Shown here one piece after another: positions 2,453 through 11,406 of a DNA stretch of 31,463 bases. Made by a program: the position numbers and the translations under genes. The notes under the pieces are model-generated. The model worked only from the letters and a program-made list of their open reading frames with translations. It made no database searches and had not been told where the DNA came from. The DNA comes from a virus. Within the stretch, counting starts at the first letter, position 1, and the number at the start of each line of letters is the position of its first letter. The stretch is taken from positions 1-31,463 of IMG/VR virus record IMGVR_UViG_3300009413_000044. One strand, given 5' to 3'.

Positions 2453-3412
2453 TTACTTTGCGGCAACGTCCACCTCTTCGGCGGCCTCGCCAGACGCAGC
2501 CATGATCAGCTTGGCCGCCCTCTCAGCCTGTGACGCAGCGGTCACGATGGCCTTCTTGTCCTTCTTCAAGACCTTGAGCCACGAGGCCAGGTAGGTGGCA
2601 TGGTCCGCTCTCGGCTCCTCCGGCTGGCTGATTCCACAGTCAGCGCACAGGAACGCGGCGGTCAACTCAGCCACCAGTTCTTCCACGGCATAGGCGTTGT
2701 CGCCAAACCGCTTGCCGAACTGCCGGTCCAGCCGGGACTCATGGCCCGTGCTGTGCCCAGCCTCATGAAAGGCTACCGAGAAGTAGCAACCCTCATCCTT
2801 GAACTGCTCGAACTTTGGCAGTCGGATGGAGTCGTCCATCGGAGAGTAGCAGGCGCGGTTCCCGCCATGGTTCACCGTGACCACCTCCGACCATCCACCC
2901 AGCACCTCAGCAGCGCGGTCGTAGGTATCCCCAGCCACTGACCCATCATGGTCCTCGATGGTCGGCTCAGGACCAGGCGCGTACTCGCTGCCCTCTTCCC
3001 AATCGATCTGACATGCGTTGAATACCGCGTAGAGCTTCGGGTACGGGATCATGATCGGCTCGCCGTTGCTCGCTATGCGCGGCTTGCCGTTCCCATCCTT
3101 GGCCGGGAAGAACAGCCACTTGACGATGCGCGTGGACTTCTCGCCCTTGCGAACCTGGCCGCCCCTGCTCTTGGCTCCGCCATAGGTGTGCCAGGTGTTC
3201 GACCAGTAGCCCATGGCCTGACAGGTCGCCCAGCACAGCAGGACGTTGATGCCCTTGTACACCTTGCCGCTGGCACCACTCACGGGGCGCAGGGATGAGC
3301 CACCCACTCCCACCCACTGGGCACGCCAGGGCTGAACCCCAGCCTCCAGAGCCGTGATGATAGAGTCAGTGATGGTTGTGTAGGGGTCGATTCGTTTGTT
3401 GCTCTGGGCCAT
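2453..3412 (-). CDS. ardC: ArdC-type antirestriction protein (ssDNA-binding + zincin-like metallopeptidase)
   Basis: 319 aa, with AAGGAG upstream of the ATG at 3412. The N-terminal half (about 1-140; GVQPWRAQWVG, YKGINVLLC, YWSNTWHTYGGAKSRGGQVRKGEKSTRIVKW) matches the ArdC N-terminal ssDNA-binding domain. The C-terminal half carries the zincin signature HEAGH at residues 216-220, followed by SRLDRQFG and a downstream EELVAEL helix likely to give the third metal ligand. ArdC proteins are known from conjugative plasmids, where they help incoming DNA in restricting hosts. A phage copy fits protection of the genome after entry. The family is confident; the biological role here is inferred. Confidence 0.88.
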   Translation of the reverse strand: MAQSNKRIDPYTTITDSIITALEAGVQPWRAQWVGVGGSSLRPVSGASGKVYKGINVLLCWATCQAMGYWSNTWHTYGGAKSRGGQVRKGEKSTRIVKWLFFPAKDGNGKPRIASNGEPIMIPYPKLYAVFNACQIDWEEGSEYAPGPEPTIEDHDGSVAGDTYDRAAEVLGGWSEVVTVNHGGNRACYSPMDDSIRLPKFEQFKDEGCYFSVAFHEAGHSTGHESRLDRQFGKRFGDNAYAVEELVAELTAAFLCADCGISQPEEPRADHATYLASWLKVLKKDKKAIVTAASQAERAAKLIMAASGEAAEEVDVAAK

Positions 3413-8530: not shown

Positions 8531-8554
8531 ACAGGCTCCATGTACAGCGTTTAG
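8531..8554. repeat. 24-bp direct repeat, copy 1
   Basis: ACAGGCTC, two variable bases around an A, then GTACAGCGTTTAG. It matches 10606-10629 at 22 of 24 positions in the same orientation, about 2.1 kb away. The two copies bracket the block of four small leftward genes and the hairpin array. It could be a regulatory site, a recombination scar or part of a duplicated coding end. Confidence 0.5.
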
Positions 8555-9066: not shown

Positions 9067-9204
9067 TTTATAATCCTGGGTTGATTGTGAAGGGTTGCTA
9101 TACAATGGGGTTCGCCACACGCCTGGGCTCAACCCCCCTCCTCTGTTCACAGGGGGGAGCCCGGCGGCGGCTATGGGTGGCGGGGGATGCGCTCCCCCGT
9201 GGCG

Positions 9205-9288: not shown

Positions 9289-9323
9289 GGTTGCTCCGTG
9301 GGGGCTGCCCCCCGGTGGGTGGT

Positions 9324-9506: not shown

Positions 9507-9548
9507 GTTGCTCCTTGGTGGGGGGCAAGCCCCCCGGTGGGTGGTTGG

Positions 9549-9965
9549 TTAGTTGCGGTCAAGGTCGGCAAGCTCTCCGGCGTACCGCTCACGGATGTCG
9601 TCATACCGGGCGTTGAACTCATCATCAGCCCAGCCACCGCTGTGCTCGCGGTGAGCCTCTGCGTCCATGCGGGCCTCATGCTCACGGGCACGGGTTTCCG
9701 ATTCCTCCTCTCGGGTCGGGCGGCCATCGATCAGCCGCTGGTACTTGTCGATCTCGCGAAGGAATTCGTCGGCCCGCGTTGCCTGTGTTCTCAGCCCATA
9801 GGACTGCTCACCGGCCTTGATTCGGGCGATGCCGGTTTCAAGGTGGTCGATGGCGGTGTCCATATACCCGGCGGCCATGTTGATGCGGTGCTGCCAGCGC
9901 CTCTTGTACCATGCGAGGGAACGCGGGTGTCTGCGTGTCGAGTTGAAGTTGAAGGTGGTGGACAT
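9549..9965 (-). CDS. Hypothetical charged helical protein, 138 aa
   Basis: ATG at 9965 with CGGAGCAAC (9966-9974) upstream. The N-terminus is basic (NSTRRHPRSLAWYKRRWQHRINMA). The rest is a highly charged helix, probably coiled coil (TRADEFLREIDKYQRLIDGRPTREEESETRAREHEARMDAEAHREHSGGWADDEFNARYDDIRERYAGELADLD). It is the first gene after the hairpin array at 9985-10520, so that array may be its 5' leader. Function unknown. Confidence 0.7.
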   Translation of the reverse strand: MSTTFNFNSTRRHPRSLAWYKRRWQHRINMAAGYMDTAIDHLETGIARIKAGEQSYGLRTQATRADEFLREIDKYQRLIDGRPTREEESETRAREHEARMDAEAHREHSGGWADDEFNARYDDIRERYAGELADLDRN

Positions 9966-9984
9966 GTTGCTCCGGGGGTGGTTG

Positions 9985-10520
9985 GTTTCGGCCCTGCTGG
10001 GCCATCATCAGGGGGCGAGCATTACGCCCCGACCTTTCCGTGCTCCCCCCGTGATGGGGGGTGTGCATCCCCCTGACCCATGGTCTTGGGGGGCCGCGAT
10101 TAGGACGCGGTGGCCTGCCTCTCCGTCTTGGCGGGTGCGGAGAACTCACCCGTATAGCATCGCCGGGATAAATCCCGACTCTTCCCCCGCATGCCTTGCG
10201 GCACAGCTATTCGCGGGGGACGATTCACACAGGGGGGCCTCTCACGTTGGTACGGTCTACCCTACTCGCGCTTGCGCCTCGGATGCACGCCCTCCCATGG
10301 GGAGGCCACTCGTGCACCGTGCTGACGGTTGCGGTTGTTGGGCGGCTCGGCTCGTCCCCCGGGGGGGGGTCATCGCTTCGCTGTTGTACCCCGCTTTGCT
10401 AAGGGGTTGCCACCTGTGTCCTATTCCGCCTCGGTCCAGTGGGGGTCCGCCACCCCCTATCGCCGTTCCTGCGTGTCGGCAGACTGCGGGGGGTGTTTCG
10501 GGACCCGGTGGGGTCCGAGG
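9985..10520 (-). ncRNA. Candidate large structured RNA (tandem hairpin array)
   Basis: At least twelve perfect-stem hairpins lie in ~530 bp: 9990-10003, 10012-10030, 10045-10061, 10069-10093 (with an inner GACC/GGTC), 10094-10110, 10132-10152, 10164-10177, 10183-10220 (8-bp stem, inner TGCC-GCAA-GGCA), 10284-10316 (TGCACG stem enclosing CCTCCC/GGGAGG), 10388-10407, 10441-10457 and 10501-10516. No frame here looks coding. I place it on the minus strand because the inner hairpin then has a GCAA (GNRA) loop, the candidate promoter at 10552-10580 points into it, and the gene at 9549-9965 lies downstream. It may be a free ncRNA or a long structured leader. No known RNA class is assigned. Confidence 0.5.
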
Positions 10521-10551
10521 TTTCGTTGATGTGAAAGAGCCTGACCCACTG

Positions 10552-10580
10552 AATAGAACCGGGCGGGAGCCAAACGTCAA
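10552..10580 (-). promoter_or_regulatory. Candidate leftward promoter before hairpin array
   Basis: On the minus strand TTGACG (10580-10575) is followed after 17 nt by TCTATT (10557-10552). The -35 is good and the -10 modest. A CCTAAC hexamer, shared with the other leftward modules, lies a few bases upstream (10587-10592). Transcription would start at the right edge of the hairpin array. Confidence 0.4.
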
Positions 10581-10594
10581 GGGCAGGTTAGGCA

Positions 10595-10696
10595 TTATTT
10601 TTTGGACAGGCTCGACGTACAGCGTTTAGACAGGCAAAAAAACTTTTCCTTGCCCATGCGGTTGACGGTCGGGCAGGTCGGGTTAGTGGTACACAT
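10595..10696 (-). CDS. Possible mini zinc-finger peptide, 33 aa
   Basis: MCTTNPTCPTVNRMGKEKFFCLSKRCTSSLSKK, read from the ATG at 10696. The Cys pattern C-x5-C-x12-C-x4-C with FFCLSKRC resembles small treble-clef zinc fingers, and the sequence looks more protein-like than the GC-rich frame it extends from. The ribosome-binding site is poor, so the start is uncertain and the frame may extend further upstream. Its last codons overlap one copy of the 24-bp direct repeat. Confidence 0.35.
   Translation of the reverse strand: MCTTNPTCPTVNRMGKEKFFCLSKRCTSSLSKK
10606..10629. repeat. 24-bp direct repeat, copy 2
   Basis: Partner of 8531-8554, differing at two positions. Read on the minus strand both copies can encode KRCT-x-SL. 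This may mean the repeat is the end of a once-duplicated gene. A 12-bp inverted pair AGGTTAGGCATT (10585-10596 and 8374-8385) links the same two regions. Confidence 0.45.
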
Positions 10697-11303
10697 GCTC
10701 GCACGGATCGCCTTCTCGAACCTCCCCGCCGCCGACTCAAGGCAGCGTGCCCGGTGCGTCAGCACTGGCAGGTTCGTCGCATGGTCCCGTGCCGCCGCTC
10801 TTCGCTCCCCCGCCGCTCCGGTGGTGGTGCCCCTGCTCCCCGCACAGGCGGTGACGGTGGCCCCCCCGGTGGTGGTGGTCGATGCGATCGATGCCCCCCC
10901 GGTGGTGGTGGTTGATGCCGACAAGGCCGTGACCGCTCCCCTCGTGCGCGCGCTTCTTCTTCTCGTCGCCCTGGTCACCGCCGCTGGTCGCCGGGTCGCC
11001 ACCCTCATCCTCGCCGCCCTGCCCACCATCCGGCGGGCCGCCGCCCTGGTCGCCCTGGCTGCCACGCTCAGCGGGGCCGGATGCCCTGCCGCCGCTGCTG
11101 CTGAGGCCCCCCCCTGGGGTAGTGGTAGTGCGGTGGGTGCGGTGGGTGCTGCTGCCCTGGGCGACGATGCCACCACCCGATCCCCGCGCGGCGCGTGGAC
11201 CCCAAACGCTGGACGCAGAGCCTGCCAGGGGTCAAAAACCCCGAAACCGCCGCCAAGGACCCCACACGCGCGATGCGGGGGGCCCCAGCGCCGCAAAATG
11301 CAG
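10697..11303. other. GC-rich stretch with no convincing gene
   Basis: Very high GC leaves long frames open on both strands, none with a good start, ribosome-binding site or natural composition. Plus-strand 10602-11405 gives Val/Ala-rich runs (APPVVVVDA twice). One minus frame (about 11232-10739) gives an Asp/Gly/His-rich sequence (GGEDEGGDPATSGGDQGDEKKKR, HHHRGG repeats) but has no ATG, GTG or TTG before the repeats. Runs of 7-9 C or G make frameshift errors possible. A 33-bp-period tandem repeat is at 10861-10918. Confidence 0.4.
10861..10918. repeat. Two-copy tandem repeat, 33-bp period
   Basis: Seven C, GGTGGTGGTGGT, one variable base, GATGC occurs at 10861-10885 and again at 10894-10918. 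The period is a multiple of three, which would fit a coding repeat on either strand. Confidence 0.5.
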
Positions 11304-11326
11304 AAAAAAGGCTCCCCCCTGGGGAG
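11304..11326 (-). terminator. Intrinsic terminator (leftward)
   Basis: On the minus strand CTCCCC-AGG-GGGGAG is followed by CC and six T. On the plus strand only three T follow, so it acts best leftward. It lies between the rightward promoter at 11379-11406 and the leftward control region, and would stop antisense transcription entering from the right arm. Confidence 0.6.
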
Positions 11327-11378
11327 TTTGATGATGATAGTGATAGTAAATGAGAGTTATGCAGGTTGTAGCGTGATG

Positions 11379-11406
11379 TTGTTGGAGGTCTGTTCTGTGA
11401 TATAAG
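11379..11406 (+). promoter_or_regulatory. Candidate promoter for the right arm (extended -10)
   Basis: TGATATAAG (11398-11406) is a TGN extended -10 with TATAAG. TTGTTG (11379-11384) sits 16 nt upstream as a weak -35. It lies 21 bp before the first rightward gene and just after the leftward terminator, so placement is good. Confidence 0.5.

Follow-up and report, generated by a model that had tools for sequence, protein, structure and literature searches.

A conserved structured leader RNA in a phage operon, probably released by a type III hammerhead ribozyme

In a 31,463-base stretch of an IMG/VR virus record (the whole stretch is referred to here as the window), which belongs to an uncultivated phage family, the leader of the leftward operon is probably a highly structured ncRNA (~515 nt), which is freed by self-cleavage and acts as a discrete phage RNA. 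Comparison with relatives revealed, at the level of sequence, a ribozyme supported by covariation, a conserved non-coding body, a shared start motif and, in the relative G036, a corresponding 3' domain. A broader proposal, that these leaders form a new family of large phage RNAs (~515-780 nt) which carry an antitermination signal like that of host rRNA, have a hammerhead replacing the terminator in some lineages, act in trans and are unrelated to GOLLD and ROOL, is quite possible but is offered only tentatively.

Genes run leftward to the left of position 9965 and rightward to the right of 10695, so that 9966-10694 forms a divergent intergenic stretch. A preliminary description of this DNA had reported a dense array of perfect hairpins at 9985-10520, with nested stems at 10069-10093, 10183-10220 and 10284-10316. 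All three nested stems are present, and the density holds up against 200 dinucleotide-preserving shuffles: the region contains 25 perfect stems with 5 bp or more and loops of 3-20, compared with 11.8 ± 3.6 in the shuffles, of which 2/200 reach 25. Stems of at least 6 bp number seven (3.5 ± 1.9 in shuffles; 13/200 reach 7), the top count among 116 window tiles. Perfect stems of 7 bp or more are absent at these loop sizes, and thus it is the density of the hairpins and not their length that is striking. The folding energy of the minus strand was modestly better than that of shuffles (z -1.9, and -2.7 in a second run) and that of the plus strand was weaker (z -0.7 and -1.4); these energies are not convincing on their own.

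It was in the comparison with relatives that the stretch immediately preceding the leftward gene stood out, and its sequence places it in a known ribozyme class, the type III hammerhead (9982-10037, minus strand), with self-cleavage inferred. From 10037 to 9982 the minus strand reads AAAGGUC/GGGGCG-UAAUGCU-CGCCCC-CUGAUGA-U-GGCCC-AGCA-GGGCC-GAAA-CCAA, where the slash marks the predicted cut, between 10031 and 10030, behind the cleavage site GUC (10033-10031). Stem I (10030-10025/10017-10012) is followed by the core CUGAUGA (10011-10005), stem II (10003-9999/9994-9990) and the core GAAA (9989-9986), and stem III (GGU/ACC) is open, with only three clean pairs in the window. All positions of the core CUGANGA...GAAA and of the NUH cleavage site are present in the window and invariant in the relatives. 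Against Rfam RF00008 the window hammerhead scored 27.1 bits (E 0.004), two close relatives 31-33 bits and G036 23 bits; since the curated cut-off of the family is 48.5 bits, a default Rfam search is silent on it, and at the gathering cut-off Rfam returned nothing in the window. The preliminary description, which took the hairpins for a large structured RNA of no described class, read from the minus strand, was right about the RNA as far as comparative evidence, covariation and the lack of an Rfam family go, but it missed the best-defined part, the left end, which is not undescribed.

The ribozyme assignment rests further on covariation, on a model of our own and on folding, the hammerhead being the minimum-energy fold of its stretch. 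Among six aligned sequences, 8 of the 16 pairs carry changes in both partners, and 95.8% of cells are paired, compared with 74.9% in shuffles. When 23 distinct sequences were considered, in an alignment that was fitted to the model, double changes were seen in 12/16 pairs (0/500 shuffles); pairing holds in 95-96% of the cells of stems I-III, and each of these stems shows compensatory changes. The model built from the six sequences matched at ten places in nine records, of which the window is one; the matches include a second copy inside the leftward operon of G005 and one behind a leftward gene in G024, and a pattern scan of viral contigs gave twelve further hammerhead loci. Loops I and II are complementary (UGCU/AGCA in the window, with the variants GCC/GGC and UCC/GGA elsewhere), and 12/1000 re-pairings reach the observed total, so that a tertiary contact between them is only weakly supported by the present sequences. 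A pseudoknot between these loops has been described for many hammerheads, and the window loops resemble it (PMC3088659). A circular RNA would require another ribozyme at its 5' end, and searches with Rfam and with our own model found none there.

The body of the RNA (10031-10545, minus strand, ~515 nt), which has the hammerhead cleavage site as its 3' end, is conserved, non-coding and structured in relatives. Its best conserved internal block, defined by blastn and by alignment with G017, G035 and G036, lies at 10344-10433 and holds hairpins of the forms CCCC..GGGG, GCGAAGC and ACCC..GGGT. The nested hairpins at 10284-10316 (inner CCUCCC/GGGAGG) and 10183-10220 (inner UGCC-GCAA-GGCA) both have counterparts in G036 with different stem sequences; the GCAA tetraloop of the latter, emphasized in the preliminary description, is not a diagnostic feature. 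The 3'-domain hairpin at 10069-10093, with a CCAUGG-type apex (GACC/GGUC), has changed-stem counterparts in all lineages, and a G/C hairpin immediately 5' of the hammerhead (10042-10066) stands where hammerhead-less relatives have a terminator-like hairpin. Behind the leader, the first gene (9549-9965, minus strand) encodes a protein of 138 aa of unknown function with a relative in L003, and its start codon lies ~65 nt downstream of the cleavage site.

Conservation of the body was evident between G005 and G008, which differ at 39 of about 585 positions and by three 1-nt indels, while the repeats 5' of it have strongly diverged. Mismatches in the body fall evenly across codon positions in three pairs of relatives (149/119/230 in a control gene). 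Consensus folding of the body without the ribozyme was better than that of column-shuffled alignments in six of seven alignments (z -3.0 to -6.5); the pair of window and G017 alone was not significant (z -1.4), and this test did not tell the strands apart. In single-sequence folding, z was lower on the minus strand in 7/7 homologs (-1.9 to -4.5). We were unable to establish a single consensus structure of the entire body that holds in every lineage.

At the 5' end, a promoter-like sequence on the minus strand (10552-10580) consists of TTGACG (10575-10580), a 17-bp spacer and TCTATT (10552-10557), and transcription is expected to start near 10545. The promoter proposed earlier at this place thus exists on the proper strand and with a 17-bp spacer, but it is only a weak match to the consensus and is absent from the list of a strict promoter scan; similar promoter-like sequences lie upstream of the RNA in relatives. 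An RNA that starts near here and leads into the leftward gene at 9965, as the preliminary description had it, fits the comparative evidence. Just inside the RNA is a boxA-like motif, GCUCUUUCACAUC (10528-10540, minus strand). The form GYUCUUUNANAUC occurs near the 5' end in 13/13 leaders, in ten of them exactly and in three with two mismatches (these three are not individually significant), and the motif in the window was matched in 0/60 shuffles. It resembles boxA of rrn operons, according to what we take to be the consensus of the latter. A role has been described for boxA just downstream of the rrn promoter (PMC10250234). As in the rrn leader (boxB-boxA-boxC), a boxA or boxA-like element soon follows the promoter of a long, untranslated, structured RNA (PMC10250234), and in several relatives a hairpin lies 5' of the boxA-like motif; unlike the rrn leader, the phage RNA is not rRNA, no boxC was identified in it and there are no data on Nus factor binding.

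Relatives located through terminase keep the leader layout and differ in how the RNA ends. The body ends in a hammerhead in three lineages (the window with G017 and G036, G005 with G008, and G014 with G012), whereas the lineages G004/G015/G016 and G007/G009/G011 lack a hammerhead; at the corresponding position and in the same direction they carry a large non-coding stretch with a boxA-like start, whose 3' end consists of a hairpin with a CCGUGG apex, a G/C hairpin and a U-run. Within the former of these, G015 is 83% identical to each of G004 and G016 over 563-694 nt. A covariance model of the 3' domain, built solely from G007/G009/G011, recovered no records other than G004/G015/G016 (E 2e-10 to 4e-12); when the hammerhead lineages were searched directly, it matched G036 at E 8e-4. 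The G036 match ends at the 5' edge of the hammerhead, and so, as far as these alignments go, the hammerhead seems to occupy the site of the terminator-like end of other lineages. Double changes occur in 12 of the 27 pairs of the 3' domain (0/500 shuffles) in an alignment that was fitted to the model, and five pairs covary within the three founding sequences. Because this model did not match the window itself, the link of the window to the hammerhead-less RNAs rests on position, on the boxA-like start and on its body alignment with G036 (51% identical columns).

An unfiltered search of the hammerhead-less relatives with model R1 found no hammerhead; the best match (E 0.64), in L118, is possibly a decayed copy. 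Megablast and an exact pattern for the body returned no close record, and a terminase search of genome contigs returned no relative. The 3'-domain pattern hit 86 stretches in genome contigs, none of which was supported by model R2, and L128, L170 and L171 were set aside as chance matches, L171 matching weakly on both strands.

We propose that transcription would begin near 10545 from the promoter at 10580-10552, and that the boxA-like site at the 5' end would make the elongating polymerase resistant to Rho during synthesis and folding of the untranslated RNA. The 3'-terminal type III hammerhead would then self-cleave at 10031/10030, freeing the folded ~515-nt RNA with a 2',3'-cyclic phosphate end and leaving the operon mRNA with a 5'-OH end some 65 nt upstream of the first start codon. 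The freed RNA would act as a discrete phage ncRNA, and in the sister lineages an RNA of the same kind would end in a terminator-like structure. That the RNA is cut and released is deduced from what is known of hammerhead chemistry, and promoter use, antitermination, cleavage in cells and function as a free RNA are inferred as well. Points against a released ncRNA are the sub-cut-off hammerhead score with its short stem III, the 3'-domain model that misses the window, the lack of one fold for all lineages, the strand-blind folding test with its non-significant pair of window and G017, the weak promoter and the absence of expression data.

The main rival of a released ncRNA is a leader that acts only in cis and is trimmed away, the nascent RNA working in antitermination or attenuation of the leftward operon, the hammerhead trimming the transcript to a short translatable 5' UTR, and the released piece having no function. 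The boxA-like start would suit such a leader, as would the position of hammerheads just before start codons in this phage and in others, among them a halovirus hammerhead 13 nt before a start codon (PMC3088659). However, an elaborate body of 500-700 nt that is conserved along its length exceeds the needs of an antitermination site, and the terminator-like hairpin that ends the RNA in hammerhead-less relatives argues for a unit RNA, and we consider a purely cis-acting leader unlikely, if far from negligible. That an ordinary phage hammerhead merely lies beside a GC-rich divergent intergenic stretch, with hairpins that are conserved as DNA (a replication origin or protein sites) or arose by chance and with no functional RNA body, appears improbable. 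The high GC content, the modest folding z-scores, the repeats and palindromes near by in G005/G008 and a covariation test that is equal on both strands would all be in keeping with it, but the body is far better conserved than the repeat region, compensatory changes in the 3' domain go beyond shuffles, the boxA-like start and the hammerhead are strand-specific, and the minus strand has the lower z in all seven homologs.

We found almost nothing to recommend a protein-coding gene, be it the plus-strand ORF 9817-10629 or the minus-strand ORF 10257-10595. These are long open frames, and tblastn shows partial similarity in relatives; the similarity, however, jumps frames, mismatches are even over codon positions, indels of 1, 2 and 5 nt occur, and there is no PHROG match, so that coding across the hairpin region was excluded and the earlier statement that it holds no credible gene was borne out. 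The preliminary description had named a lack of covariation or a conserved reading frame as findings that would refute a structured RNA, and on checking neither did so. Size and phage setting, together with a report of VIPR arrays that contain hammerheads (PMC13142463), could suggest that the RNA diverged from a known large family such as GOLLD or ROOL, or that the locus encodes VIPR guide RNAs with hammerheads scattered among them. We regard either as hardly tenable, since no large-RNA match to Rfam was obtained in the window or the relatives searched, permissive thresholds included, and the window holds no tRNA and no YNNGG run of at least 5 units; a VIPR vrRNA array (9-16 tandem YNNGG repeats) was excluded in the window and in the relatives tested by the absence of such a run.

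No Rfam family accounts for the body of the RNA, in line with the earlier failure to assign the region to a GOLLD- or ROOL-type class, and no publication describing it was found in the literature searched, which left out most subscription journals. GOLLD and ROOL are likewise phage-encoded, untranslated and several hundred nt long with elaborate structure (PMC12286853); the RNA described here differs from them in matching no Rfam model, in its ribozyme 3' end and boxA-like start, and in having no tRNA near by. GOLLD and ROOL usually lie near tRNA islands and no tRNA was found in the 31-kb window, but the record is a fragment. With the phage and prophage hammerheads of Perreault et al. 2011 (RF00008; PMC3088659), the window ribozyme shares the core CUGAUGA/GAAA, the NUH site, three stems of which stem III is open, and complementary loops I and II. 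Like the published ardA case, it lies between genes of a leftward phage operon with an anti-restriction gene (PMC3088659), here phrog_7245 at 2453-3412. It is unlike that set in closing a large conserved non-coding RNA, in its 3-bp stem III and in a score below the Rfam cut-off.

We class the RNA among the large structured RNAs of phages, where the combination of its two ends is unusual. To our knowledge, such RNAs number no more than a handful so far, and what they do remains open. If our reading is correct, it would add a large-RNA family with two handles, a boxA-like start and a ribozyme-made 3' end, and with both ends so defined the RNA could be synthesized, mapped and put to direct test. 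The same reading would assign to some phage hammerheads, so far without a clear purpose, the task of freeing a non-coding leader from an operon mRNA, and the ribozyme and terminator-like 3' ends of sister lineages would constitute a natural experiment on 3'-end formation.

Hammerheads were also seen in other settings. In unrelated phages with other genes (L145-L149, L151, L153, L156 and L157), a promoter is followed by a non-coding leader of 150-330 nt, a hammerhead and then the start codon of a gene for ~170-225 aa of unknown function. These leaders share short motifs and may represent another RNA family, and their layout fits the released-RNA and cis-leader views alike. One stretch of a 45-kb phage contig (L159) carries three type III hammerheads on the plus strand (1742-1796, 2155-2210 and 2967-3022), in which the contact between loops I and II changes to UCC/GGA and GCC/GGC.

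Several other elements were noted around the leader. Another conserved element (~75 nt), ACAUAGCCSSCGCCG-hairpin-GGCGNGCGGYGGACC, lies in the 5' part of the leftward operon (window 9108-9180, minus strand) and in G004, G005, G007, G009, G011, G016 and G036 (loci L113, L108, L109, L115, L116, L114 and L105); it is directly behind the hammerhead in G005 and G008, and its stems look compensatory. Short hairpins of G5-6/C5-6 occur between leftward genes (window 9300-9320 and 9520-9545; L003 210-235 and 1400-1420), a few bases before ribosome sites of the type GGAGC(A/C)AC. On the opposite strand beside the RNA, 10695-11405 (plus) is a 236-aa Ala/Val/Pro-rich ORF with no PHROG match and with similar ORFs in at least ten relatives. 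GC content drops near 11300, from ~62-65% in the leftward genes to ~53%, and GC skew climbs sharply where the rightward genes begin, a shift that does not reflect an assembly chimera because the gene layout is common to relatives. The motif ACGTACAGCGTTTA, at window 10615-10628 and 8540-8553 and also in L107 and L108, is repeated in intergenic stretches (5 matches with at most 3 mismatches, compared with 1.25 expected). In G005 and G008 several copies of it are mixed with palindromes like ACCGCGACANNNATGTCGTGGT beside the 5' end of the RNA, and these repeats and palindromes are candidate promoter, regulator or origin sites.
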